Shown: piece by piece, positions 2,733-11,633 of the stretch
Layout of the letters: each line of letters opens with the position of its first letter
How positions within the stretch are numbered: the stretch's first letter is position 1
Source: a virus
Length of the DNA: 50,383 nt
Virus record (IMG/VR): IMGVR_UViG_3300007514_000021
Coordinates: 1-50,383 of that record
Direction: 5' to 3' (one strand)
Notes under the pieces: generated by a model
Told to the model about the DNA's origin: nothing
Seen by the model: the letters and a program-made list of their open reading frames with translations, nothing else
The model's database searches: none
Made by a program: the position numbers and the translations under genes

Positions 2733-2855
2733 ATGAGAAATTATATGATCGCTATCTGGGAATTCTGTAAAGAATATCCAGGCTGGGCAGCCGCATTTTT
2801 CTTTTGTGGCTACCTATTAGGGATAGTACTAAAAAGCTCAATGACTTATGTGTGA
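2733..2855 (+). CDS. Small membrane protein (40 aa)
   Basis: The chosen start, ATG 2733, has GAGG at 2721-2724, 8 nt upstream. An in-frame ATG at 2706 overlaps the previous TGA as ATGA and would give 49 aa. The product has a short amphipathic N-terminus (Trp, Glu, Phe, Cys, Lys) and one hydrophobic segment with an Ala-rich core and Phe-Phe-Phe-Cys-Gly, then a short Lys-Ser tail. It is the last gene of the left cluster before the non-coding gap. No family is recognised. Confidence 0.5.
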   Translation: MRNYMIAIWEFCKEYPGWAAAFFFCGYLLGIVLKSSMTYV

Positions 2856-3047
2856 TTCTAAGCACGCATATGGGCACTAGTCGCGAAACCTACCAATTCT
2901 TCACCTAAAACACCCTTTTTAAGCTCCGTAGCGCGCGCCTAAGCGCGTTTGCGCGGGGGGACCTTTATGTTTATATGGGGCCCTTTCTGGGGGCCTTATA
3001 TGCAGAATGGGCATAAACTTATGCCAAAACTGTTACGATTTGTTACG
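2856..3047 (+). other. Non-coding gap with GC-rich hairpins
   Basis: No convincing gene occurs between 2856 and 3143. The stretch holds a GC-rich alternating block (2931-2960) that can fold as CGCGC-CTAA-GCGCG (2934-2947) or GCGC-GTTT-GCGC (2943-2954). An 11-bp hairpin follows at 2973-3001 (ATATGGGGCCC / GGGCCTTATAT, two G-U pairs, 7-nt loop), then a small hairpin GGCATA-AACT-TATGCC at 3010-3025. There is no clear U-run after the hairpins, so a classical intrinsic terminator is not obvious. A transcription stop, RNA-processing element or protein-binding region are alternatives. Confidence 0.6.
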
Positions 3048-3106
3048 AAAAAAGTTGAAAAAAGTTGAAAAAAGGGGTTTACAAGGGGCCAAAAATGTGG
3101 TATAAT
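3048..3106 (+). promoter_or_regulatory. T4-early-like sigma70 promoter with phased A-tracts
   Basis: The -35 is TTTACA (3078-3083), the spacer is exactly 17 bp and the -10 is TATAAT (3101-3106) preceded by TGTGG. Three A6 tracts at 3048-3053, 3058-3063 and 3068-3073 are spaced by exactly 10 bp, as expected for bent DNA or UP-element contacts. This matches the known T4 early promoter pattern (GTTTAC ... TGTGGTATAAT). It reads into the gene at 3144. Confidence 0.92.
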
Positions 3107-3143
3107 GGTACCCATATTCAAAATTAATCATAAGGAGTTATAA

Positions 3144-3584
3144 ATGATTTTAGCAATTGATACCCAATACCGCGAGAACTACGGAGCCCATTCTTGGGAC
3201 GGCGAAGGCGAATGCCCTCAGTATTGGAAGCCCAAAGGTGGGTCAACCTATTTAGTAACCGGTGACGTTAATCACAAAAATGTGATAAACGAACTCACTA
3301 ATCTCATTAATTACAAAAATGAGGCTAGCGAGGAATTCGTTATCGCAGTTCATCTTGAAGAAGATGGATATTGCTCTGATTTCGAAAGATGGCAGAAAGA
3401 AGATCGCTATGGTGATGGTGTTAGATATGATACACGTATCACACGTCGCGAAGATGGAACTTATTTTGCTACTGAGCAATATAAAGGTCCTCGCGGACAG
3501 TCAGTTGCAACTTATAACATGGCACCTGGCGGTGAACAAGAAAATCGTCAGTATACTGAAGAAATTTACGAGGAGACAGCATAA
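3144..3584 (+). CDS. Early conserved phage protein of unknown function
   Basis: A 146-aa soluble protein, the first gene after an early-type promoter, with Shine-Dalgarno AAGGAG (3132-3137) inside a leader ATAAGGAGTTATAA shared with the gene at 4367. It starts MILAIDTQYRENYG and contains a Trp-Asp-Gly-Glu-Gly-Glu-Cys-Pro-Gln segment and a Lys-Gly-Gly-Ser-Thr-Tyr turn. I recognise it only as a small conserved hypothetical of T4-like phages. There are no catalytic motifs or membrane segments. The stop overlaps the next start (TAATG). Its leader is a predicted target of the hairpin RNA at 6144-6195. A +1-frame ORF inside it is a shadow. Confidence 0.85.
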   Translation: MILAIDTQYRENYGAHSWDGEGECPQYWKPKGGSTYLVTGDVNHKNVINELTNLINYKNEASEEFVIAVHLEEDGYCSDFERWQKEDRYGDGVRYDTRITRREDGTYFATEQYKGPRGQSVATYNMAPGGEQENRQYTEEIYEETA

Positions 3585-3811
3585 TGGCTATTAAAATAGA
3601 ACAACAAGTTCACGGATCCCCGTACGATCGAGGAACAGCAGATTCTTATTACAGGAGATTAGCAAAACCTCATTTCTATCCAAATGGAACATATAAAAAT
3701 CCTTTGGTCATAGAAGAATTTATGACACCAAAACAAGTTAAAGAATATCATCAAGGTTATGAAGATAACGAGCGTGAGGGTCATTTCAAGGATTGGGGCT
3801 ATGACTATTAA
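3584..3811 (+). CDS. Small hypothetical protein (75 aa)
   Basis: The ATG at 3584 overlaps the upstream TAA by one base (TAATG), so translation is probably coupled. The product is Tyr-rich and hydrophilic, with FMTPKQVKEYHQGYEDNERE in its C-terminal half and ending in Trp-Gly-Tyr-Asp-Tyr. No recognised domain, signal or membrane segment. Likely an early host-takeover or accessory protein, inferred only from its position behind the 3,078-3,106 promoter. Confidence 0.7.
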   Translation: MAIKIEQQVHGSPYDRGTADSYYRRLAKPHFYPNGTYKNPLVIEEFMTPKQVKEYHQGYEDNEREGHFKDWGYDY

Positions 3812-3920
3812 AATGAACACTAATTCTTTATCTCGAAAAGAATCTAAAAAACTTAAAAAGATTCGTGAGACAAAAGAAAGGCAAAAATCTAAAAAGGATT
3901 TAAAATTTAATGATGCTTGA
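3801..3920 (+). CDS. Very small Lys/Arg-rich ORF (39 aa)
   Basis: ATG 3801 lies inside the end of the previous gene and the TGA at 3918-3920 lies inside the start of the next, so the ORF bridges two genes. The product is strongly basic (Ser-Arg-Lys-Glu-Ser-Lys-Lys-Leu-Lys-Lys near the N-terminus) and probably helical. The compact overlaps favour a real gene, but there is no homology evidence. A later in-frame ATG at 3813 would shorten it by four residues. Confidence 0.45.
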   Translation: MTIKMNTNSLSRKESKKLKKIRETKERQKSKKDLKFNDA

Positions 3921-4269
3921 AATTACAGGTAGTGTTAAAGATCGACATTTAGTCGAAGAATATGCCGTGAATATAATCAAGAGATTTAGACTTGACAGGC
4001 GTAAGCATGGAACTATTACCATAAGGTTTAGAAAAAGAATGCCTAATGGATATGGAGATTCTCTGGGAGCTTGTGAAGGAGACAGAAGAGATGCTGATAT
4101 TGATATTGCTCAAAAACAATCATTTTATGAACAGATGTTAACATTAGCTCATGAAATGGTTCACGCAAAACAATTTATGAGAGGGGAATATCCCTCAGAA
4201 ATGGAAGCTAAAACTGCTGAATATGACTTATTTGGTAGGTGTTATCCATGGAAAAAGGTGAGATATTAA
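3910..4269 (+). CDS. Putative zinc metallopeptidase-like protein (HEMVH)
   Basis: A 119-aa protein with LAHEMVHAKQ at residues about 79-88: an HExxH zinc/catalytic motif in the last third, followed by acidic residues (EYPSEMEAKTAEYD) that could supply the third ligand. The layout resembles short SprT/gluzincin-like phage proteins. There is no signal peptide, so it would act in the cytoplasm. ATG 3910 or ATG 3913 could be the start. The substrate is unknown; it could modify host proteins early or process a phage protein. The enzyme class is inferred from the motif alone. Confidence 0.7.
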   Translation: MMLEITGSVKDRHLVEEYAVNIIKRFRLDRRKHGTITIRFRKRMPNGYGDSLGACEGDRRDADIDIAQKQSFYEQMLTLAHEMVHAKQFMRGEYPSEMEAKTAEYDLFGRCYPWKKVRY

Positions 4270-4273
4270 TGAA

Positions 4274-4331
4274 ATTATTTTCAATTATTTTCAAAAAAGG
4301 GGTTTACAAACCTCTCGAAATGTGGTATAAT
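4274..4331 (+). promoter_or_regulatory. T4-early-like sigma70 promoter
   Basis: TTTACA (4303-4308), 17-bp spacer, TATAAT (4326-4331) with TGTGG directly upstream, near-identical to the promoters at 3078 and 8458. Upstream T/A-tracts at 4278-4281, 4288-4291 and 4293-4298 keep about a 10-bp period (TTATTTTCAA twice). It drives the gene at 4367. Confidence 0.92.
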
Positions 4332-4366
4332 GGCCATATAGATACAAAATTCAATAAGGAGTTATA

Positions 4367-4708
4367 ATGGATCGAATCGAAATAATCAAAAAAGCCGCAA
4401 TGAAACTTGAGGCTAAAAAACTTGGCTTGACCTTCGAGCAATATGAAGGAAAGCTAATCTGCGATGAGCTCGATGCTCGCAAAGCAGCAGCAAAGGCAGC
4501 TGAAAAAGCTCGCAAAAAAGAAGAGCGCAAAGTTGCTAAGGACCTAACCGGTCAAGTTAAAAAAGCTGGACATCTTGCAAAAGGTGGTTTAGATTTTAAT
4601 CGTCCAGAGAATATGTATTACTCTGATAAAGATACAGAAAAATTCCTCGCGGATAGTTCTATAATGGACGCATATAATGCTAACAGATCAGCTGATGGAG
4701 ATTATTAA
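4367..4708 (+). CDS. Charged Ala/Lys-rich helical early protein
   Basis: A 113-aa protein. The start has a strong AAGGAG (4356-4361) in the same ATAAGGAGTTATAATG leader context as the gene at 3144. Residues about 8-65 are rich in Lys, Ala and Glu and look like a continuous helix or coiled coil (AAAKAAEKARKKEERK). The C-terminal part is more polar and ends with Asp-Gly-Asp-Tyr. A nucleic-acid-associated role is possible because of the basic helix, but no family is recognised. Confidence 0.75.
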   Translation: MDRIEIIKKAAMKLEAKKLGLTFEQYEGKLICDELDARKAAAKAAEKARKKEERKVAKDLTGQVKKAGHLAKGGLDFNRPENMYYSDKDTEKFLADSSIMDAYNANRSADGDY

Positions 4709-4891
4709 ATGTTCGTAGCTAATTTTACAATAAACAGTAGATCAAAAAATCTAGGGATAAAGGTCTCGTTGTTAGATTTTTTGATTTATAAAATCGCTCC
4801 AGACTTTTTTATGGAGAGGTTTAATAAAAGATTTACAAACGATTTTTCTAAATTCAATTTTGAAGGAGTTAATTATTATGGAAAAAAATGA
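4709..4891 (+). CDS. Small hypothetical protein (60 aa)
   Basis: The ATG directly follows the previous TAA with no gap, and the 3' end overlaps the next start by 14 nt. The product is basic and aromatic-rich (Phe, Asn, Lys), with a moderately hydrophobic middle (SLLDFLIYKIAPDFF) that may be an amphipathic helix. No recognisable motif. Gene packing is its main support. Confidence 0.5.
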   Translation: MFVANFTINSRSKNLGIKVSLLDFLIYKIAPDFFMERFNKRFTNDFSKFNFEGVNYYGKK

Positions 4892-5294
4892 AATAAGATT
4901 TGAACCTTGTGATGATGGAACCGCTGGTGGTTCTCTTCAAGGCTCAATAACCGCATCTTTCTACGAGCTAGAACAGATGTTTGGTACACCTGCCTTTGAA
5001 GGTAAAGGTGATAAAATCACTACAGAATTTGTAGTTGATTTCGAATACTATGATGCTTGGGGTGACCTTGAAACAGGAACCTTTAGTCTTTATGACTGGC
5101 ATTATGCTAGAAACTTTAATGATGATTCAGAAGAAATCACATGGAATGTTGGAGGTCCTTATTATACCTGCGGCGTTGCAGCTGATTTTGCTCTAAAGAT
5201 TTTTAGAGAAACTGATGTTAGATATGGAGATGAAGAGGCTTGTTTAGCTGATTACAACTTCAATCTAGAAGATATTGGCGAAGTATCTGCATGA
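4878..5294 (+). CDS. Acidic hypothetical protein (138 aa)
   Basis: ATG 4878 is chosen because AAGGAG lies at 4863-4868, 9 nt upstream; a longer frame from TTG 4860 lacks a ribosome-binding site. The protein is acidic and aromatic, with no membrane segment (DFEYYDAWGDLETGTFSLYD in the middle; Tyr-Tyr-Thr-Cys-Gly-Val later). No known fold is recognised. Its stop codon overlaps ATG 5291 as ATGA. Confidence 0.8.
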   Translation: MEKNEIRFEPCDDGTAGGSLQGSITASFYELEQMFGTPAFEGKGDKITTEFVVDFEYYDAWGDLETGTFSLYDWHYARNFNDDSEEITWNVGGPYYTCGVAADFALKIFRETDVRYGDEEACLADYNFNLEDIGEVSA

Positions 5295-5425
5295 ACTATT
5301 TAGAACAACCGGGCCACGCTCTCCCCAACAGCGTATCTGTTGGTGAGCCCCTGCAGGGGACCGAGAGAACCGTGAGCAGCCAGTTGGAGACCCCCATCGC
5401 GTTGGGGGTCTTTTATGTATTATGA
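5291..5425 (+). CDS. Possible 44-aa ORF spanning the structured RNA
   Basis: The ORF has ATGA overlaps at both ends: with the TGA at 5292-5294 upstream and with ATG 5422 downstream, exactly as expected for coupled genes. The whole frame, however, runs through the stable stems and terminator described next, and the product (MNYLEQPGHALPNSVSVG...) has no recognised feature and unusual GC-rich codons for this region. It may be a real coupled leader peptide, or only a chance frame in an RNA gene. Confidence 0.3.
   Translation: MNYLEQPGHALPNSVSVGEPLQGTERTVSSQLETPIALGVFYVL
5306..5415 (+). ncRNA. Structured RNA candidate, three-way junction plus terminator
   Basis: Seen by hand folding: the closing helix CACGCTCTC (5315-5323) pairs with GAGAG (5363-5367) and CGTG (5371-5374), with an AAC bulge. 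Inside are hairpin A, CCAACAG/CTGTTGG (5325-5343, 5-nt loop), and hairpin B, CCCC-TGCA-GGGG (5348-5359). It is followed by a linker and the terminator at 5388-5415. GC content is far above the surroundings. It fits no riboswitch or tRNA I know and lacks the hammerhead core. It could be a stable phage RNA, analogous in kind only to T4 RNA C/D, or an attenuator before the gene at 5422. Confidence 0.6.
5388..5415 (+). terminator. Strong intrinsic terminator
   Basis: A perfect 9-bp stem AGACCCCCA / TGGGGGTCT (5388-5396 and 5403-5411) with loop TCGCGT, followed by TTTTAT. It would end transcription coming from the 4,303-4,331 promoter just before the gene at 5422 unless readthrough or antitermination occurs. 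Confidence 0.88.
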
Positions 5426-5715
5426 ATAATATTTCCAAAGCTTTAAATCAAAAGATGAAGGAAGGACAACCAACCCTTGAAGTCCAAACCCATTCGAATG
5501 GAGGTATACAAAAGCTATACAAATTTCGAAATGGTATGGGCGCGAGCGTAGTTATGTTTCCTGGATCATATGGATTTGAAAAGGGATTATGGGAACTAGC
5601 AGTTCTTGATCCTTGGGGAGATATTACTTATGATACACCTATCACATCAGATGTGATCGGATATTTAGATGATAATATGGTAAATATAATATTAGAGAGG
5701 ATTAAAAAACTATGA
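5422..5715 (+). CDS. Hypothetical protein (97 aa)
   Basis: The start lies 7 nt beyond the terminator's U-run. The only purine-rich candidate for ribosome binding is the GGGGG of the terminator stem, so translation may be coupled to the overlapping ORF (ATGA at 5422-5425). The protein is soluble, with a Lys-rich N-terminal helix and a beta-rich middle (GGIQKLYKFRNGMGASVVMF, then LWELAVLDPWGDITYDTP). No recognised family. Confidence 0.7.
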   Translation: MNNISKALNQKMKEGQPTLEVQTHSNGGIQKLYKFRNGMGASVVMFPGSYGFEKGLWELAVLDPWGDITYDTPITSDVIGYLDDNMVNIILERIKKL

Positions 5716-5858
5716 CACTATTTAATAGAAGAGTCTTTGCGGTTAGAGAAGCAATGAAAAGAGCTCAAAATCCTGAGTTTAAAAAATTATGGGAAAACAT
5801 TTTAGAAAAACTTATCAGGAACGAACAAGCAAGGCGGGAGGAAAAACCTAAGCTATGA
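5712..5858 (+). CDS. Small basic helical protein (48 aa)
   Basis: ATGA overlaps both neighbours (5712-5715 and 5855-5858), the classic coupled arrangement of this cluster. The product is Arg/Lys/Glu-rich and helical throughout (RRVFAVREAMKRAQNPEF then LWENILEKLI). GGGAGGA at 5836-5842, in its 3' end, serves the next gene. Unknown function. Confidence 0.6.
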   Translation: MTLFNRRVFAVREAMKRAQNPEFKKLWENILEKLIRNEQARREEKPKL

Positions 5859-6127
5859 CTCAATATGATGATGTAGTAGAAAAGCAGCGCATCAAGGCAG
5901 CTGCTGAAGCATGGGGTAAAAAAGTTAATAATATCCACATGTTTAATTCTGATGATACCAATGTATGGTATGATGATAGAAAAGGAGATGGTCGAGTAAT
6001 CGATACCACATTTAATTCTGGACTCATTAGAAGAGAAATAAGTTCTACTGGAAAAACAGTTTATATAGGTAAGAGAGCAAAAGGTGAAACTCTTATCGAT
6101 CGCTTTAGGCGATATAGGGCAAAATAA
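5855..6127 (+). CDS. Hypothetical protein (90 aa)
   Basis: ATG 5855 lies 12 nt after GGGAGGA and overlaps the upstream TGA. The product is a basic soluble protein with a possible helical N-terminus (EKQRIKAAAEAWGKKV) and a beta-rich remainder ending in Arg-Phe-Arg-Arg-Tyr-Arg. A nucleic-acid-binding role is conceivable from charge, with no motif to prove it. Its TAA is the edge of two consecutive hairpins. Confidence 0.7.
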   Translation: MTQYDDVVEKQRIKAAAEAWGKKVNNIHMFNSDDTNVWYDDRKGDGRVIDTTFNSGLIRREISSTGKTVYIGKRAKGETLIDRFRRYRAK

Positions 6128-6142
6128 AACGCTTAGCGTTTT
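6126..6142 (+). terminator. Short perfect hairpin ending in T-run
   Basis: AAAACGC-TTA-GCGTTTT: a 7-bp stem with a 3-nt loop, starting on the last two bases of the TAA stop codon. It may be a weak terminator or a 3'-end stabiliser. It is immediately followed by the longer hairpin at 6144. Confidence 0.55.
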
Positions 6143-6143
6143 G

Positions 6144-6195
6144 GCCGGTCTTACCTACCCTAACTCCTTATCAAAGGGTAGGACCGGCATTTTAT
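6144..6195 (+). ncRNA. Hairpin RNA with anti-Shine-Dalgarno loop
   Basis: The outer stem GCCGGT (6144-6149) pairs with ACCGGC (6183-6188); after a 4-nt bulge CTTA, the inner stem CCTACCCT (6154-6161) pairs with AGGGTAGG (6175-6182). The 13-nt loop (6162-6174) contains AACTCCTTAT, exactly complementary to ATAAGGAGTT in the leaders of the genes at 3144 and 4367, and over 8 nt to the leader at 4863. ATTTTAT follows, so the hairpin could be both terminator and riboregulator. The structure is seen in the sequence; the regulatory role is inference. Confidence 0.6.
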
Positions 6196-6205
6196 AGATA
6201 ATATT

Positions 6206-6310
6206 ATGTGGAATTTTTTAACAAACTTAATTAAATATTCAGTATACCTAATTCTAGGAACATTTGGACTTGGTATACTAATGATATTTATAGTAAGTAC
6301 TGTAGTTTAG
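6206..6310 (+). CDS. Tiny membrane peptide (34 aa)
   Basis: The frame ATG 6206 to TAG 6308-6310 encodes MWNFLTNLIKY followed by one hydrophobic helix (LILGTFGLGILMIFIVSTVV). The stop overlaps the GTG start of the next gene (TAGTG), supporting a coupled real gene. There is no clear Shine-Dalgarno. Function unknown; similar one-helix peptides occur elsewhere in this window. Confidence 0.5.
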   Translation: MWNFLTNLIKYSVYLILGTFGLGILMIFIVSTVV

Positions 6311-7461
6311 TGGTAAAGAAAAGAATAAAATCAGTTGATGAACTGTACATGGGTAAAGAACCTTTCTGGGATGAAACTAATCCTTGTCCCCCAATAGGGT
6401 CAAAAGGAAGAGGAATGGAATGGTCTAAATCATCTCATTGGTATGATTATTTTTATAAATCAAAAGATCATGTACCCATAGTTCTTAAATATTGTGAAGA
6501 AGAATTAGGATATTCTAAATCAGATATAGCTATACTTAAAAAATTACCGGCCTGGAAACTAGGAATTCATGCAGGTTCATGGGTTCGTCTCTTTTATCAA
6601 GGATGGATATATGAAGACGAGTGGAAAGAAAACATGAAAGAAAAGATTGCTGGGTATTTTAAAGAAGCAAAGAAATTAAAAACCGAATTAGACGAAAAGA
6701 AAAAAGATAAACCTCCTGTTATAAGTCCGCATGAAAGAATGCGCCTAAAGGTATTAAAGACTATAGCAGTTGATTGGGATAAAATGGTTATTGATAAATG
6801 GATGGATAATGAATTTGATAAAAAGATAGTTAAATTTCCTACATATAGTTTATTACAATTACATGGATTAAAAGGTTCTGCCATTAATATGTTTCGTGAT
6901 ATAGTAATGGAAGAATATGAAACAATTAAAGCTGCTTACGAGAAAACAGATGAGCAATGCGTAGAAGGATATGCACATATCAAGAAAGGTGATAAGCGAA
7001 AGATGATTGATCTTATGGATAGCATTTTTGATGATATAGAACGATATAGGGAAGCACAAAAAGCTCAAAGAACTACTAGAGCAAAGAAAGTATATACTGC
7101 TACTGATCAAGTCAAGACTTTAAAATATTTAGTAGAAGATGAAGATGCTAAACTTCATTCTATTGCTCCAGCTCTTATACCTAAATCTCAAATGTTTTGG
7201 ATGTATAATATTAAGACAAGAAAGCTTACAGAATTTCATTCTAACTCTGTGTTAGGATTTGAGATTAAAGGATCAACACTAAAGAATTGGGATGATACCA
7301 CTAGTCGAATTACAACACTCAGGAAACCTGATGAGATCTTACCCCAAATTCTTACCAAGACAGAAAAACAAATTAATAATGTGTGGAAATCTTTAACCAC
7401 TAAAATTGGTATACCCACAGGAAGAATAAATAAAGATACAATTTTATTACGAGTAGAATGA
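6310..7461 (+). CDS. Conserved T4-like phage protein of unknown function
   Basis: A 383-aa soluble protein with a GTG start overlapping the upstream TAG. The N-terminal part has an aromatic, Pro/Cys-containing segment (MGKEPFWDETNPCPPIGSKG). A long Lys/Glu helical region covers about 105-140, a second lies at 195-260, and a beta-rich C-terminal third follows (MFWMYNIKTRKLTEFHSNS). It lies directly upstream of gp33-gp59-gp32 with a 4-nt overlap to gp33, a position linked with replication and late-transcription genes. I do not recognise a catalytic motif. Three antisense ORFs across it are codon shadows. Confidence 0.8.
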   Translation: MVKKRIKSVDELYMGKEPFWDETNPCPPIGSKGRGMEWSKSSHWYDYFYKSKDHVPIVLKYCEEELGYSKSDIAILKKLPAWKLGIHAGSWVRLFYQGWIYEDEWKENMKEKIAGYFKEAKKLKTELDEKKKDKPPVISPHERMRLKVLKTIAVDWDKMVIDKWMDNEFDKKIVKFPTYSLLQLHGLKGSAINMFRDIVMEEYETIKAAYEKTDEQCVEGYAHIKKGDKRKMIDLMDSIFDDIERYREAQKAQRTTRAKKVYTATDQVKTLKYLVEDEDAKLHSIAPALIPKSQMFWMYNIKTRKLTEFHSNSVLGFEIKGSTLKNWDDTTSRITTLRKPDEILPQILTKTEKQINNVWKSLTTKIGIPTGRINKDTILLRVE

Positions 7462-7700
7462 TTGAAGAATTAGAACACAAGATAATGACCAAGAAGAGAT
7501 TCACTAAAGCAGTTGAAGTTTTAGTATCTCAAAAGAATATGAGTTATATAGATGCAATGACTTACATAATAGAAGAAAGAGGAATGGATTATATGAATGT
7601 AAAGAAACTCATTTCTCCTGCATTAAAAGAAAAACTCACACAAGAAGCTCAAGGTCTAAATCTAGTTAAAGTTAAAAAGAAAAATAGCTTACCAGTATGA
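7458..7700 (+). CDS. 33: Late promoter transcription accessory protein gp33
   Basis: An 80-aa protein, shorter than T4 gp33 (112 aa) but like the marine versions. The core FTKAVEVLV...YIDAMTYIIEERGMD followed by KKLISPALKEKLTQEAQGLN fits the gp33 pattern, in which the C-terminal helices contact the RNA polymerase beta-flap. In T4, gp33 bridges polymerase with the sliding clamp and gp55 to fire TATAAATA promoters, many of which are present in this window. ATGA overlap with the upstream gene; one gene away from gp59 and gp32, as expected for T4-likes. Confidence 0.85.
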   Translation: MIEELEHKIMTKKRFTKAVEVLVSQKNMSYIDAMTYIIEERGMDYMNVKKLISPALKEKLTQEAQGLNLVKVKKKNSLPV

Positions 7701-7885
7701 ATTCGAATATAGAAATTCAAATGCAGTGGGCTATGTTTAACTTTGATATAGCTGTAGTTATTATGTTTTTAATAATATCTCTATTTTGGAAACAGCAAAG
7801 ATTAGGTCTTTTTGTTGGTGCTATGATTTATTTATTTTTTACAATATTGTGGCATATACCTATAGATTGGAGCAATTTATATTAA
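7697..7885 (+). CDS. Small two-helix membrane protein
   Basis: A 62-aa protein with two hydrophobic segments (about residues 15-31 and 36-53) separated by a basic turn Trp-Lys-Gln-Gln-Arg, so a hairpin in the inner membrane is likely. ATGA overlaps with gp33 (7697-7700), and its stop overlaps the gp59 start (TAATG). It interrupts the usual 33-59 pairing. Unknown function; a holin or membrane-anchoring role is possible. Confidence 0.6.
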   Translation: MNSNIEIQMQWAMFNFDIAVVIMFLIISLFWKQQRLGLFVGAMIYLFFTILWHIPIDWSNLY

Positions 7886-8475
7886 TGGATCCTTTCGACA
7901 GTTATAAATTATATAATGCACTTAAACTTCATTTTGAGAGTGATACATATGATGCTATCAAATATAATTTTCATACTACAATTAATCATAATAGTTTCTT
8001 TAAAAGAAAGGATAAGTATTATTTTGCTAAGTTAGCTAAAAATTATCCAAAGGAATTAAAAGAATTTTATGTATCACAATTTATTAATGATGCAAAATAC
8101 GTAGGAGATATGATGGATCCTACAGCCAAGAAAAATTATGTTGAATATAAAAGAGTACATGAAGCAATACATCGTGTGTTCGAAAAAGATATAAATACTA
8201 TTGGTAATAAAGAATTTGATGATCTTTTGGTGGTGAACAATATAAACACACCTCCGGAGATTATTAAAAGATGGATGGAGGAAGACATAACACTGGAAAC
8301 AGTGGTCATCCTTGATCAATTGACTAACTTTGTTGAGAAAGAAGGGAGTAAGATAACCGAAACTTTGTTTTGGCCCGATACTTCTAGAAAGATCAAAAAG
8401 TATAGTCCATTCGTAAACTTCAAAAAAGATAAATGTTTAAATATTATCAAAAAGAGGTTTACAAAACCACAATAG
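7885..8475 (+). CDS. 59: Helicase-loading protein gp59
   Basis: 196 aa from ATG 7885, chosen because it overlaps the upstream TAA as TAATG and matches T4 gp59 length (217 aa); an in-frame upstream ATG at 7786 lies inside the membrane-protein gene. The start MDPFDSYKLYNALKLHFES, a basic centre (FFKRKDKYYFAKLAKNYP) and a helical C-terminal half fit the gp59 family. In T4, gp59 loads the gp41 helicase onto gp32-coated forks. Direct adjacency to gp32 supports this. Its 3' end contains the early-like promoter for gp32. Confidence 0.85.
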   Translation: MDPFDSYKLYNALKLHFESDTYDAIKYNFHTTINHNSFFKRKDKYYFAKLAKNYPKELKEFYVSQFINDAKYVGDMMDPTAKKNYVEYKRVHEAIHRVFEKDINTIGNKEFDDLLVVNNINTPPEIIKRWMEEDITLETVVILDQLTNFVEKEGSKITETLFWPDTSRKIKKYSPFVNFKKDKCLNIIKKRFTKPQ

Positions 8476-8486
8476 TGTGGTATAAT
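8458..8486 (+). promoter_or_regulatory. T4-early-like promoter for gp32
   Basis: TTTACA (8458-8463), 17-bp spacer ending in TGTGG, TATAAT (8481-8486). Same sequence plan as at 3078 and 4303, but embedded in the end of gene 59. An AT-rich leader of about 56 nt follows. Confidence 0.9.
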
Positions 8487-8521
8487 AAGAGTCTATATTA
8501 TGGGAAAGTGGATAATTCAGT

Positions 8522-8551
8522 AAATACAATGCAATACGGAGAAATACAATG
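8522..8551 (+). promoter_or_regulatory. Direct repeat over the gp32 start region
   Basis: AAATACAATG occurs at 8522-8531 and again at 8542-8551, the second copy ending in the gp32 start codon; ACGGAGA lies between them. The first ATG is out of frame. T4 gp32 represses its own mRNA by binding an unstructured A/U-rich leader, so this repeat could be an operator or a decoy start; that link is inference. Confidence 0.4.
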
Positions 8552-9436
8552 TCATTTGCAAATTTAAAGAGCGCACGAGGCTCGTCAATCGACAATCTCG
8601 TAAAAGCAGCGGAAGCTGTTTCAACAAAATCAGAAACTAAATCATATGTTGATGAACGTTTCTGGAAACCCACTCAAGATAAAGCTGGCAATGGATACGC
8701 TGTTATTCGTTTCTTGCCTGCTAAAGAGGGTGAGGATCTACCTTGGGTTCGTTACTGGGATCATGGCTTTAAAGGCCCAACTGGTCTCTGGTATATCGAG
8801 AATTCTTTAACTTCAATTAATCAACCAGATCCTGTATCTGAAGCTAATACGCTTCTTTGGAATACTGGTCGTGAAGAAGATAAAGCACTTGCTCGTGAAC
8901 GTAAACGTAGATTACATTATGTGTCAAATATCCAGGTGATATCTGACTCTACTAGACCTGATGCTGAAGGAAAAGTATTCCTTTACAGGTTTGGTAAAAA
9001 AATCTTTGACAAAGTCATGGATGCAATGCAACCTGCATTCTCAGATGAAGTACCGGTTAATCCGTTCGACTTCTGGGAAGGTGCTGATTTTAAATTAAAA
9101 ATCAGAAAAATAGATGGTTGGACAAACTATGATGCATCAGAATTTTCTACACCGACTCCTTTGTCGGAAGATGATTCTGTACTAGAAGAAGTATATGGTA
9201 AATTATATACTTTGTCAGAGTTTGCTTCTCCTGAGAACTACAAATCATATGATGAGCTTAAAGCTAAATTGAATAGGGTTCTTGGAGTTGATGCTGGTAT
9301 TACAGCTGCAGCAACTGCACCTGCTACTGCCACATCTAATGTAACTATGGATTCAATGCCTGAAGTACAACCTGAATCTTCTTCTGAAGAAGATGATACT
9401 TTGAGTTATTTTGCTAAACTAGCAAACGAATCATAG
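8549..9436 (+). CDS. 32: Single-stranded DNA-binding protein gp32
   Basis: A 295-aa protein (T4: 301). It has the conserved N-terminal basic segment (MSFANLKSARG), the family core WKPTQDKAGNGYAVIRFLPA, RRLHYVSNIQV and FLYRFGKKIFDK, and an Ala/Thr-rich linker leading to an acidic tail (PESSSEEDD) for protein partners. It protects ssDNA and organises replication and recombination together with gp59, encoded just upstream. There is no cysteine in the whole protein, so the T4 zinc site (His64, Cys77, Cys87, Cys90) is missing, as I recall for marine gp32s. It ends before a bidirectional terminator. Confidence 0.95.
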   Translation: MSFANLKSARGSSIDNLVKAAEAVSTKSETKSYVDERFWKPTQDKAGNGYAVIRFLPAKEGEDLPWVRYWDHGFKGPTGLWYIENSLTSINQPDPVSEANTLLWNTGREEDKALARERKRRLHYVSNIQVISDSTRPDAEGKVFLYRFGKKIFDKVMDAMQPAFSDEVPVNPFDFWEGADFKLKIRKIDGWTNYDASEFSTPTPLSEDDSVLEEVYGKLYTLSEFASPENYKSYDELKAKLNRVLGVDAGITAAATAPATATSNVTMDSMPEVQPESSSEEDDTLSYFAKLANES

Positions 9437-9479
9437 TACACGGGTTTAGTATACTCTATCGTAGTCAATTCTAAACTTT

Positions 9480-9518
9480 AAAAGGGGTTCGTGACCGTAA
9501 ATCCGAATCCCTTTTTCT
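9480..9518 (+). terminator. Bidirectional terminator between convergent genes
   Basis: AAAAGGGGTTCG (9480-9491) pairs with CGAATCCCTTTT (9504-9515) with one G-U pair and a 12-nt loop; T-runs lie on both strands. It sits between gp32 (+) and the minus-strand tape-measure candidate, so it can stop both transcripts. Apart from this hairpin, the 9,437-9,578 gap shows nothing. Confidence 0.85.
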
Positions 9519-9578
9519 TAGGAATTCAAAACGTATATATAAAGTGATAGCCTGAGAAAAGGAACACACCAAATCTTA

Positions 9579-11633
9579 TTATCCAATCTTTAAAGAATTA
9601 GTCGTATCAGATGAATCTGGTGTTGAATGTATAGAAGCTAAATTAGTGATGTTTGTACTAGTAGTTAAACTTGTTGGTGAGAAGACAGATTGATCAACAG
9701 AAGTAGGTCCTCCGGCAGTCGCTAAAGCAGGATTACCAGCAGCAACTAATTCTAAACCAGTAGTCTGAATTGGAGCAAATAAGGATTTTAATAGATTAAT
9801 TTCTTCAGTAACCCTATCTATTCCTTCTATATTAAGTAATCCCTTAACTTCTGTATTGAATCCTCTATAATCAATTCCACCTTCTAAAGCTACCTCAAAT
9901 ACCTTTGTAGCGTCCAATAGATCCTCAGCCATTTGCTCCGTATCCATATCAAATGTTATATCACCTAATCCTTGGAAATCAGTTAAAACATTTCTAAATC
10001 TTTCTAAAGAATCAACTCCTTTATCAATTTGATCAGCATTATTTGCTAAGATAAGCGCTTGTTCTACTGGACCTTTTTCACCTGAAAAGAATTTTACAAC
10101 AGCTGCCATGGCTTGACCTAATGCTCCAATAAATGTACCACCGCCAAAGGCAGCTAGACCTGCAGCTAATTCTACTAATATGGCAGTTGTTTTTGTAGTT
10201 TTTTCTAATGTTGCTGAAGGTAAATCACCAATGGTTAATAGTGTTGCTACTTCTCTTTTAATATCTTCAGCAAAATTATCACCAGCTGAGAATTTAGTTA
10301 TTGCATCAGCTAATCCAGCCATGCCTTTACCATAAGAAAATGCTACTAGACCTGCAGCTAATCCACCCATAACAGCTATGAATTTAGTTGTATCCCAACC
10401 CATTCCTTCTATTTGTGATATGGATAATAGTGTTTCTACTTCTGCTTTAATATCCTCTGCAAAATTTTCACCTTGGAACAATGTAATTGCATCACCAACA
10501 CCGGATCCAGCTTTACCAATTGCAAATGCTACTAAACCTAATCCAAGACCTGTCATTGCAAGGAAGAATGCACCGCTTTCTCCCATAAGATTTTTAGCAC
10601 CACCTAGCTCTTTTGAAATAGATAATAATGTTATAACATCTTTCTTTATCTTTTCTGCCCAGTCTCCTTCTTTTGTAAACATCTCTACACCGGCCGAAAG
10701 TCCTGAGGCAACTGCTGAAGCTCCTTGACCAATAGCAAAAGCTGTTAATCCAAGGCCTAAACCAGTCATTGCAAGGAAGAATGCACCACCATCTTTAAGC
10801 ATTTCACCAGCACCACCTACTTCATCAGATATACTTAAAAGGGTTATAACATTATCTTTAACATCATCAGTCCATTTCTTTCCTGTAAATTTTTCTACTA
10901 CTGGACTTAAAGCTGACGCGCCCATGGTCGCGGCCGAACCTATTGCAAATGCTGCTAATCCAAGGCCTAAACCAAGCATGGCTAAGAAGAATTTACTTCC
11001 TTCTCCTATAAATGAATCCCCATCTGCTTCAACTAGATCACTAATACTTAATAGGTTTGCAACATTTTCTTTTATCTTTTCAGAATCTATATCATCTAAT
11101 ACATTTAATAGATAAGCTCCTGCTCCTATAACAGCTGCAGCTCCGAGTCCAGCAGCTCCAACACCTATACCTAAGCCGCCCAGCATCTTGCCCATACCAC
11201 CCATTAGACCTTCAGCTAATTTTCCGGATTCTTTTGATCCTTCTTTAGCTAAAGCTTCTGGTTGTCCTTTTAGAGAATCTCTTATATCCTCAAAGATCTT
11301 TTGCATATCATCGGATTTTTCTTCCTCTTTAAGACCTTCAACTGATTCTCCTTCTAGCTTTTCCTCTTCATTTTCAAGTTGAGCACCGAAGGTTTTATTA
11401 AGGGCTTTTTGATTTTCTAACTGCGCAGCAGTCATATTCTTCATTTCAAGGAGATGTCTACGAACATTAATCGTATCTCTTCCTAGGGATTCGCCAAGGT
11501 TCTCTGATTGTTTAATCAGAGTTTCTTTTATTTCAGATAGTAATTCTTTTTGAGTACTACCCGAGACTGGGTCAGGCTTTGATTTACCTGTTTTACCTCT
11601 TTGGCTTTCAGCATCTGTTTTATCGTCAGCCAT
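9579..11633 (-). CDS. Repeat-rich virion protein, tape-measure candidate
   Basis: A 684-aa protein. The N-terminal 130 residues are polar and coiled-coil-like (KELLSEIKETLIKQSENL...). A Gly/Ala-rich hydrophobic stretch follows (GLGIGVGAAGLGAAAVIGAG), then five imperfect repeats of 63-71 residues, each with LLSIS followed by FFLAMTGLGLGLxAFAIG. The C-terminus is a mixed Ser/Thr-rich domain. It is the last gene of the gp4...gp26-gp51 minus-strand operon. Long helical/hydrophobic repeat proteins beside gp26/gp51 are candidates for the tail-length/hub function of T4 gp29 (590 aa) or an ejected membrane-interacting protein. No sequence signature proves gp29 identity. Confidence 0.7.
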   Translation of the reverse strand: MADDKTDAESQRGKTGKSKPDPVSGSTQKELLSEIKETLIKQSENLGESLGRDTINVRRHLLEMKNMTAAQLENQKALNKTFGAQLENEEEKLEGESVEGLKEEEKSDDMQKIFEDIRDSLKGQPEALAKEGSKESGKLAEGLMGGMGKMLGGLGIGVGAAGLGAAAVIGAGAYLLNVLDDIDSEKIKENVANLLSISDLVEADGDSFIGEGSKFFLAMLGLGLGLAAFAIGSAATMGASALSPVVEKFTGKKWTDDVKDNVITLLSISDEVGGAGEMLKDGGAFFLAMTGLGLGLTAFAIGQGASAVASGLSAGVEMFTKEGDWAEKIKKDVITLLSISKELGGAKNLMGESGAFFLAMTGLGLGLVAFAIGKAGSGVGDAITLFQGENFAEDIKAEVETLLSISQIEGMGWDTTKFIAVMGGLAAGLVAFSYGKGMAGLADAITKFSAGDNFAEDIKREVATLLTIGDLPSATLEKTTKTTAILVELAAGLAAFGGGTFIGALGQAMAAVVKFFSGEKGPVEQALILANNADQIDKGVDSLERFRNVLTDFQGLGDITFDMDTEQMAEDLLDATKVFEVALEGGIDYRGFNTEVKGLLNIEGIDRVTEEINLLKSLFAPIQTTGLELVAAGNPALATAGGPTSVDQSVFSPTSLTTSTNITNLASIHSTPDSSDTTNSLKIG
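10050..11054 (-). repeat. Five tandem membrane-like repeats inside the tape-measure candidate
   Basis: Repeat starts (Leu-Leu-Ser/Thr-Ile) lie near 11054, 10841, 10628, 10430 and 10241 on the minus strand, giving units of 71, 71, 66 and 63 residues and a decayed fifth. Each unit carries about 20 residues of Gly/Leu/Ala/Phe suited to a transmembrane or buried helix, then a charged helix. Units 2 and 3 are most alike. Confidence 0.85.

Follow-up and report, generated by a model that had tools for sequence, protein, structure and literature searches.

Phage RNAs that act on phage messages by base pairing include the c4 RNA of P1 and P7, a short RNA that blocks antirepressor translation in this way, and the sar RNA of P22, whose hairpin loop meets the RBS region of its target. 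The sar RNA is likewise short, pairs with phage mRNA and blocks translation of the antirepressor (PMC12197685). By its action, sar is the nearest phage analogue of the hairpin described here, with no claim of homology. Both sar and c4 are dedicated to a single antirepressor gene of temperate phages, whereas the hairpin stands at the close of an early operon in T4-like phages, where it would act on several leaders.

In bacteria, the 3' UTR of the icaR mRNA of Staphylococcus aureus carries an anti-Shine-Dalgarno (anti-SD) motif, UCCCCUG, that pairs, within one molecule or between two, with the Shine-Dalgarno (SD) sequence of the mRNA that bears it; the pairing stops ribosome loading and yields a substrate for RNase III, an established block of translation (PMC3868564). 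The hairpin would resemble icaR in placing an anti-SD at the 3' end of an mRNA, facing the SD of that same mRNA. However, icaR forms 7 nt of pairing through a motif in a single gene's long 3' UTR, whereas the hairpin, which is known from sequence, presents its motif in the loop at the end of an early operon in a phage, is complementary to several leaders over 9-15 nt and is conserved throughout a group of viruses. The alphaproteobacterial sRNA AbcR shows an anti-SD to many mRNAs. RsaE and RNAIII of S. aureus also present an anti-SD to many mRNAs, through C-rich, UCCC-type motifs (UCCCC) (PMC3868564). Unlike these RNAs, the hairpin is phage-borne, sits on what is most likely a terminator and carries ACUCCUUAUC, which is not of the UCCC type.

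T4-like phages are abundant in the ocean, and the switching-off of their early genes is known mainly from proteins of T4. RegB of T4 cuts GGAG/U in the SDs of early genes, and RegA competes with ribosomes at initiation regions (PMC3014915). The regulatory step and the target are the same as those proposed for the hairpin, but RegB and RegA are proteins and the hairpin is an RNA element. A RegA homologue is encoded in one relative record (G008), so the hairpin need not replace protein control and may add to it; a family search for RegB, run without a positive control, gave no match anywhere. On the sequences compared here, it is rather probable that the hairpin serves as a 3'-terminal anti-SD element and keeps early leaders repressed through base pairing, which we regard as its best reading.

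The hairpin and its targets

The window, meaning the whole stretch of DNA analysed, is a 50.4-kb virus record of a T4-like phage, and the features located in this paragraph and the next two lie on its + strand. At 6144..6188 a hairpin is predicted whose 13-bp stem (base GCCGGTC...GACCGGC) exposes a 19-nt anti-SD loop, ACCCTAACTCCTTATCAAA (6157..6175); comparison with relatives shows its core, ACTCCTTAT, to be general among them. The loop bases AACTCCTTAT (6162..6171) are complementary to the extended SD of early leaders. A U-rich tail, ATTTTAT (6189..6195), follows the 3' arm, and a small hairpin, AAAACGC-TTA-GCGTTTT (6126..6142), lies upstream and has a counterpart in several relatives of the same clade, for example AAGTACTTTTTTATAAGTACTT. 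The predicted fold has an energy of -24.3 kcal/mol over 81 nt (z = -2.66 against shuffles). Read by eye, the same hairpin has 7 + 6 bp, a bulge and a 15-nt loop, and the anti-SD bases are unpaired in the predicted and by-eye folds alike. A preliminary description made from the sequence had placed a hairpin RNA at 6144-6195; the stem-loop at 6144-6188 followed by ATTTTAT is confirmed, and the 6 + 8 bp stem with a 13-nt loop that it gave is replaced by the folds above.

A promoter of the form TTTACA-N17-TATAAT at 4303..4331 opens a run of small genes that ends just 5' of the hairpin. The first gene of this operon (4367..4708) encodes 113 aa, the third (4875..5294) 139 aa, and the stop codon of the last (5855..6127) occupies 6125-6127, 16 nt 5' of the hairpin stem. 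The preceding early unit has a promoter of the same form at 3078..3106 and a gene of 146 aa at 3144..3584. On the 3' side of the hairpin lie a 383-aa gene (6310..7461; phrog_11903), which is a conserved anchor of synteny, and genes for a gp33-like late-transcription coactivator (7458..7700), a gp59-like helicase loader (7888..8475) and a gp32-like single-strand DNA-binding protein (8549..9436). No strong promoter of the hairpin's own was seen in the window, and since the hairpin also comes directly after a stop codon, it would foremost be the 3' end of the early mRNA.

The perfect 10-nt complement of the loop, ATAAGGAGTT, occurs at only two places in the 50-kb window: at 4354..4363 in the leader of ORF 4367 (target 1) and at 3130..3139 in the leader of ORF 3144 (target 2). 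Counting the next base, the match is 11 nt at both, and it is 9 nt at a third target, AAGGAGTT(A) at 4863..4870, the RBS of ORF 4875-5294. The preliminary description had listed the two 10-nt sites one position too high, as 3131-3140 and 4355-4364, and had correctly located the 8-nt match at 4863-4870; its observation that both 10-nt targets follow promoters also holds, both promoters being strong. For the window, the duplex of loop and leader is predicted at -14.4 kcal/mol, against -9.5 to -10.6 kcal/mol for the same leader with a generic 16S tail, which may not be that of the host. The arrangement is that of icaR, with a promoter at 4303, an SD at 4354-4363 and an 11-nt complement near the end at 6188, and we infer that the stretch from 4303 to 6188 is one transcript. 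It is also that of sar and c4, in that a hairpin loop is complementary to the RBS of a phage mRNA.

Two differences from a near-identical contig (L002) concern the early region. A G+C-rich structured intergenic insert at 5291-5425 of the window, with a terminator-like hairpin of its own (GACCCCCATCGCGTTGGGGGTCTTTT), is absent there. Further, window 3078-3160 and L002 1621-1960 share the same promoter and leader and continue into different first genes, and the early leader seems to be a point at which early genes are swapped.

Conservation among relatives

Relatives were gathered by searches with gp32, gp33 and the 383-aa gene, giving about 200 loci. By this comparison, the hairpin is the end of the early gene cluster in many uncultured marine T4-like viruses: it lies upstream of the 383-aa gene in 73 of the 76 contigs that have that gene and the region upstream of it (72 loci from the anchored count plus L002, which also has the hairpin), at a median distance of 119 nt. 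Across the contigs with the 383-aa gene, protein identity falls to about 43%. Two closer relatives, one with 78% DNA identity (L003) and one with 70-79% where aligned (L005), have the hairpin at the same place with different stems, and 18 nt of the loop are identical in these two and the window.

The collection comprises 67 distinct hairpins, the weakest one or two of which (L061, L068) may be chance, with 61 different 5' arms. Each position of the helices is occupied by many pair types without any loss of pairing, and swapping arms between hairpins lowers pairing from 100% to 46%. When whole hairpins were aligned with MAFFT, the loop aligned and the stems did not; the covariation of stems was therefore scored directly on the paired arms. 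The loop core ACTCCTTAT(C) is kept across the 67 copies, a constancy that is partly by construction because ACTCCTT (ACTCCTT/ACTATCCTT) was the search seed; the flanking ATCA was not seeded, and its bases are nevertheless kept in 61/67 (A), 64/67 (T), 56/67 (C) and 51/67 (A). A gene-anchored look that demanded only CTCC within a hairpin returned the same ACTCC loops and one variant, ACTATCC in L205. Some 70 divergent contigs keep the hairpin, its loop core constant and its stems covarying, which is beyond chance: the hairpin of the window is real, and chance does not account for its match to the early leaders. This much of the original proposal, a hairpin RNA with a loop antisense to the RBS shared by early genes, is supported.

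A few relatives depart from this pattern. L010 and L208 have a very different, branched fold in which CACTCCTTATC is still unpaired, and their leaders read AAGGAGTG. The hairpin is absent upstream of the 383-aa gene in L217/L218 and L168, where strong AAGGAG leaders are retained, and these contigs are possible natural controls. In L205, upstream of 3155, the loop core is mutated to ACTATCCTTATC and a leader still reads TGATAAGGAGTTAA, a possible decay of the pairing.

Matching of loop and leader

An AAGGAG beside a start codon is uncommon in these phages, with at most nine per record, and such sites cluster near the hairpin: in the leader of its own operon (about -1.3 to -1.8 kb), in a leader farther upstream (about -2 to -3.7 kb) or at the gene just past the hairpin (+37 to +180). 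The sequence ATAAGGAGT is present in 27% of near leaders, 3% of distant leaders and 2% of AAGGAG sites outside RBSs. Extended from AAGGAG, the match to the loop of the same genome averages 8.66 nt for near leaders, against 6.70 nt for non-RBS AAGGAG sites (p = 3e-21) and 6.64 nt for distant RBSs (p = 1.6e-7), p values that count related sequences as independent. An SD must contain AAGGAG to function, which makes this part of the complementarity unavoidable; the complementarity extends beyond the SD core. Among the hairpins with enough upstream sequence, 26 of 33 have a leader match of at least 9 nt, the longest being 15 nt (L109), 14 nt (L099, L105 and G019) and 13 nt (G005, G016 and L224). 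In the stretches covered, the loop is kept without a long leader match in L018/L020/L023, L038/L044 and G007/G008; in the first two of these groups the hairpin is kept and the loops are altered.

Whether the loop follows the RBS in related phages was probed at several levels. When the loops of 29 records are shuffled, the match 3' of GGAG falls from 2.79 to 1.96 nt (p = 2e-4), and no covariation is seen 5' of AAGGAG (p = 0.59). The loop base before ACTCC is complementary to the leader base after GGAGT in 70% of cases, with 39% expected (p = 2e-4; 20 clusters), the partners of loop and leader being A/T, T/A and C/G. This loop base changes about ten times on the protein tree. An independent-pairs sign test with the leaders, on a quick protein tree and underpowered, was not significant; with only about four independent pairs it cannot reach significance. 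The expectation that the loop follows the RBS is thus borne out at the level of clusters, the tree test having too few changes to add to it, and we consider covariation of loop and leader supported but not proven by these sequences.

A different partner for the loop has to be weighed here. It could bind a phage or host RNA-binding protein, or the SDs of host mRNAs in a general shut-off of translation, by mimicking the 16S tail, in which case the likeness to the leaders would simply follow from the SD. Its core, CTCCTTA, is the same as the 16S anti-SD core, the loop occurs in some genomes that lack a long leader match, and the leaders are less constant than the loop. However, all 67 loops read ACT (within the seeded ACTCCTT) where a copy of the 16S anti-SD would read CCUCC, and the look that demanded only CTCC also returned ACTCC; the loop thus has ACTCC rather than CCTCC and so fits the phage AGGAGU. 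The covariation of the base neighbouring the core and the shorter matches of distant RBSs also speak against such a partner, and we consider it unlikely.

Termination and strand

The copies of the hairpin sit after the stop codon of the last early gene, and at least four T occur in the 8 nt after the stem in 60% of the 67 hairpins, against 28% in a mirror-image test on the other side. A clear U-tract is missing in some copies, while the window has ATTTTAT; a simple terminator scan with a loop limit of 8 nt did not list the hairpin of the window. From its position behind the last stop codon and the U-rich stretch that follows in 60% of cases, intrinsic termination of the early operon is the most likely role of the hairpin. 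Folded as RNA, the + strand averages -22.4 kcal/mol and the - strand -20.9 kcal/mol (p = 0.0016). The greater stability of the + strand and the T-rich tails together favour an RNA that is made along with the early genes and in most cases acts as a terminator.

It could be that pairing of the loop with an SD, on a leader RNA in trans or on the same transcript, mainly alters read-through into the gp33/gp59/gp32 block. The hairpin stands exactly between the early operon and this block, the window has no strong promoter between hairpin and 383-aa gene, and the loops are much larger than is usual in terminators. On the other hand, pairing of the loop need not open the stem, and read-through is not needed in the many relatives that have a promoter and RBS of their own right after the hairpin; this role appears still more doubtful than a different binding partner. 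A plain intrinsic terminator, its loop incidental or just inherited, would account for the post-stop position, the U-rich tail and the G+C-rich stem, but it predicts the opposite of a loop that stays fixed while stems wholly diverge, a pattern of conservation that in the main refutes it and leaves it very improbable. Least credible is a DNA element, a cruciform or single-strand replication origin near gp59/gp32, which would suit the adjoining replication genes and the inverted repeat kept in place, but G-U pairs favour the fold of the + strand RNA, T-rich tails are more frequent on the + side and the loop matches SDs.

Proposed function

For the preferred reading, a 3'-terminal anti-SD element, the following mechanism may be envisaged. 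In a large marine T4-like group the hairpin would close the early operon on its 3' side, most likely as its intrinsic terminator, and its oversized loop would stay single-stranded as an anti-SD sequence. It could then pair with UAAGGAG(U/A/G) RBSs in the leaders of its own operon and of neighbouring ones, either in cis, the 5' leader with the 3' end, or in trans, where the partner could also be a stable 3' fragment that outlasts decay of the mRNA. The duplex would block loading of the 30S subunit and might be marked for RNase III, and the outcome would be negative feedback on the early genes, or their shut-off. We infer from sequence patterns the transcription and termination of the hairpin, its pairing in the cell, the repression and any role in timing. 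A discrete small RNA and a timed switch from early to late, which the preliminary description proposed, would be one form of this control, and a dedicated timed sRNA is no more likely than feedback in cis or trans. The same description had also suggested that the hairpin sequesters the anti-SD of 16S; this idea is rejected, given that the loop itself reads as an anti-SD and like does not pair with like. A pseudoknot between the loop and an RBS directly downstream could fit L117 and L108 and was set aside for the window, where no SD follows.

It is an even question whether the hairpin represents an undescribed RNA family of marine T4-like phages in the fullest sense, an early-operon terminator that doubles as a general anti-SD repressor of strong early leaders, the RNA counterpart of the shut-off by RegB and RegA, with loop and leaders co-evolving. 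If true, a terminator that bears the anti-SD of its own operon would be a compact form of feedback. The model predicts the effect of swapping loop and leader together, and this could be tested without the uncultured virus.

Searches for described counterparts

No Rfam family reaches its gathering score anywhere in the window; the stretch 2800-9600 has no match even up to E = 5, and the hairpins of five relatives match no family either. A BLASTN comparison of the hairpin with cultured phages returned nothing; an exact match in L006 looks like chance, with no hairpin there. In the parts covered, no such hairpin was found in three cultured relatives, Pelagibacter phage HTVC008M, Methylophilales phage Melnitz-3 and Synechococcus phage syn9, or in the single-cell virus AG-345-E02, and a full-text literature search, whose reach left out most subscription papers, returned no description of one. 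The hairpin thus appears to work like known anti-SD RNAs while forming a new family with an unusual placement. The hairpin also suggests how such elements may be recognised, by a fixed loop on a freely drifting stem, a pattern that RNA searches based on alignment can miss.

Two further observations concern the surroundings of gp32. Just 3' of this gene in L038, at 6896-7010, lies a stretch with a sub-threshold likeness to the Rhizobiales sRNA Atu_C8 (30.4 bits, cut-off 50). The gp32 leader, behind a promoter at 8458 (window 8458-8548), carries a strongly conserved TATTATGRGTAAAGTGGATAATTCAGTAAATACAAYGCAATACGGA across relatives, which may be a short ORF that overlaps the start of gp32, or else a site of gp32 autoregulation.
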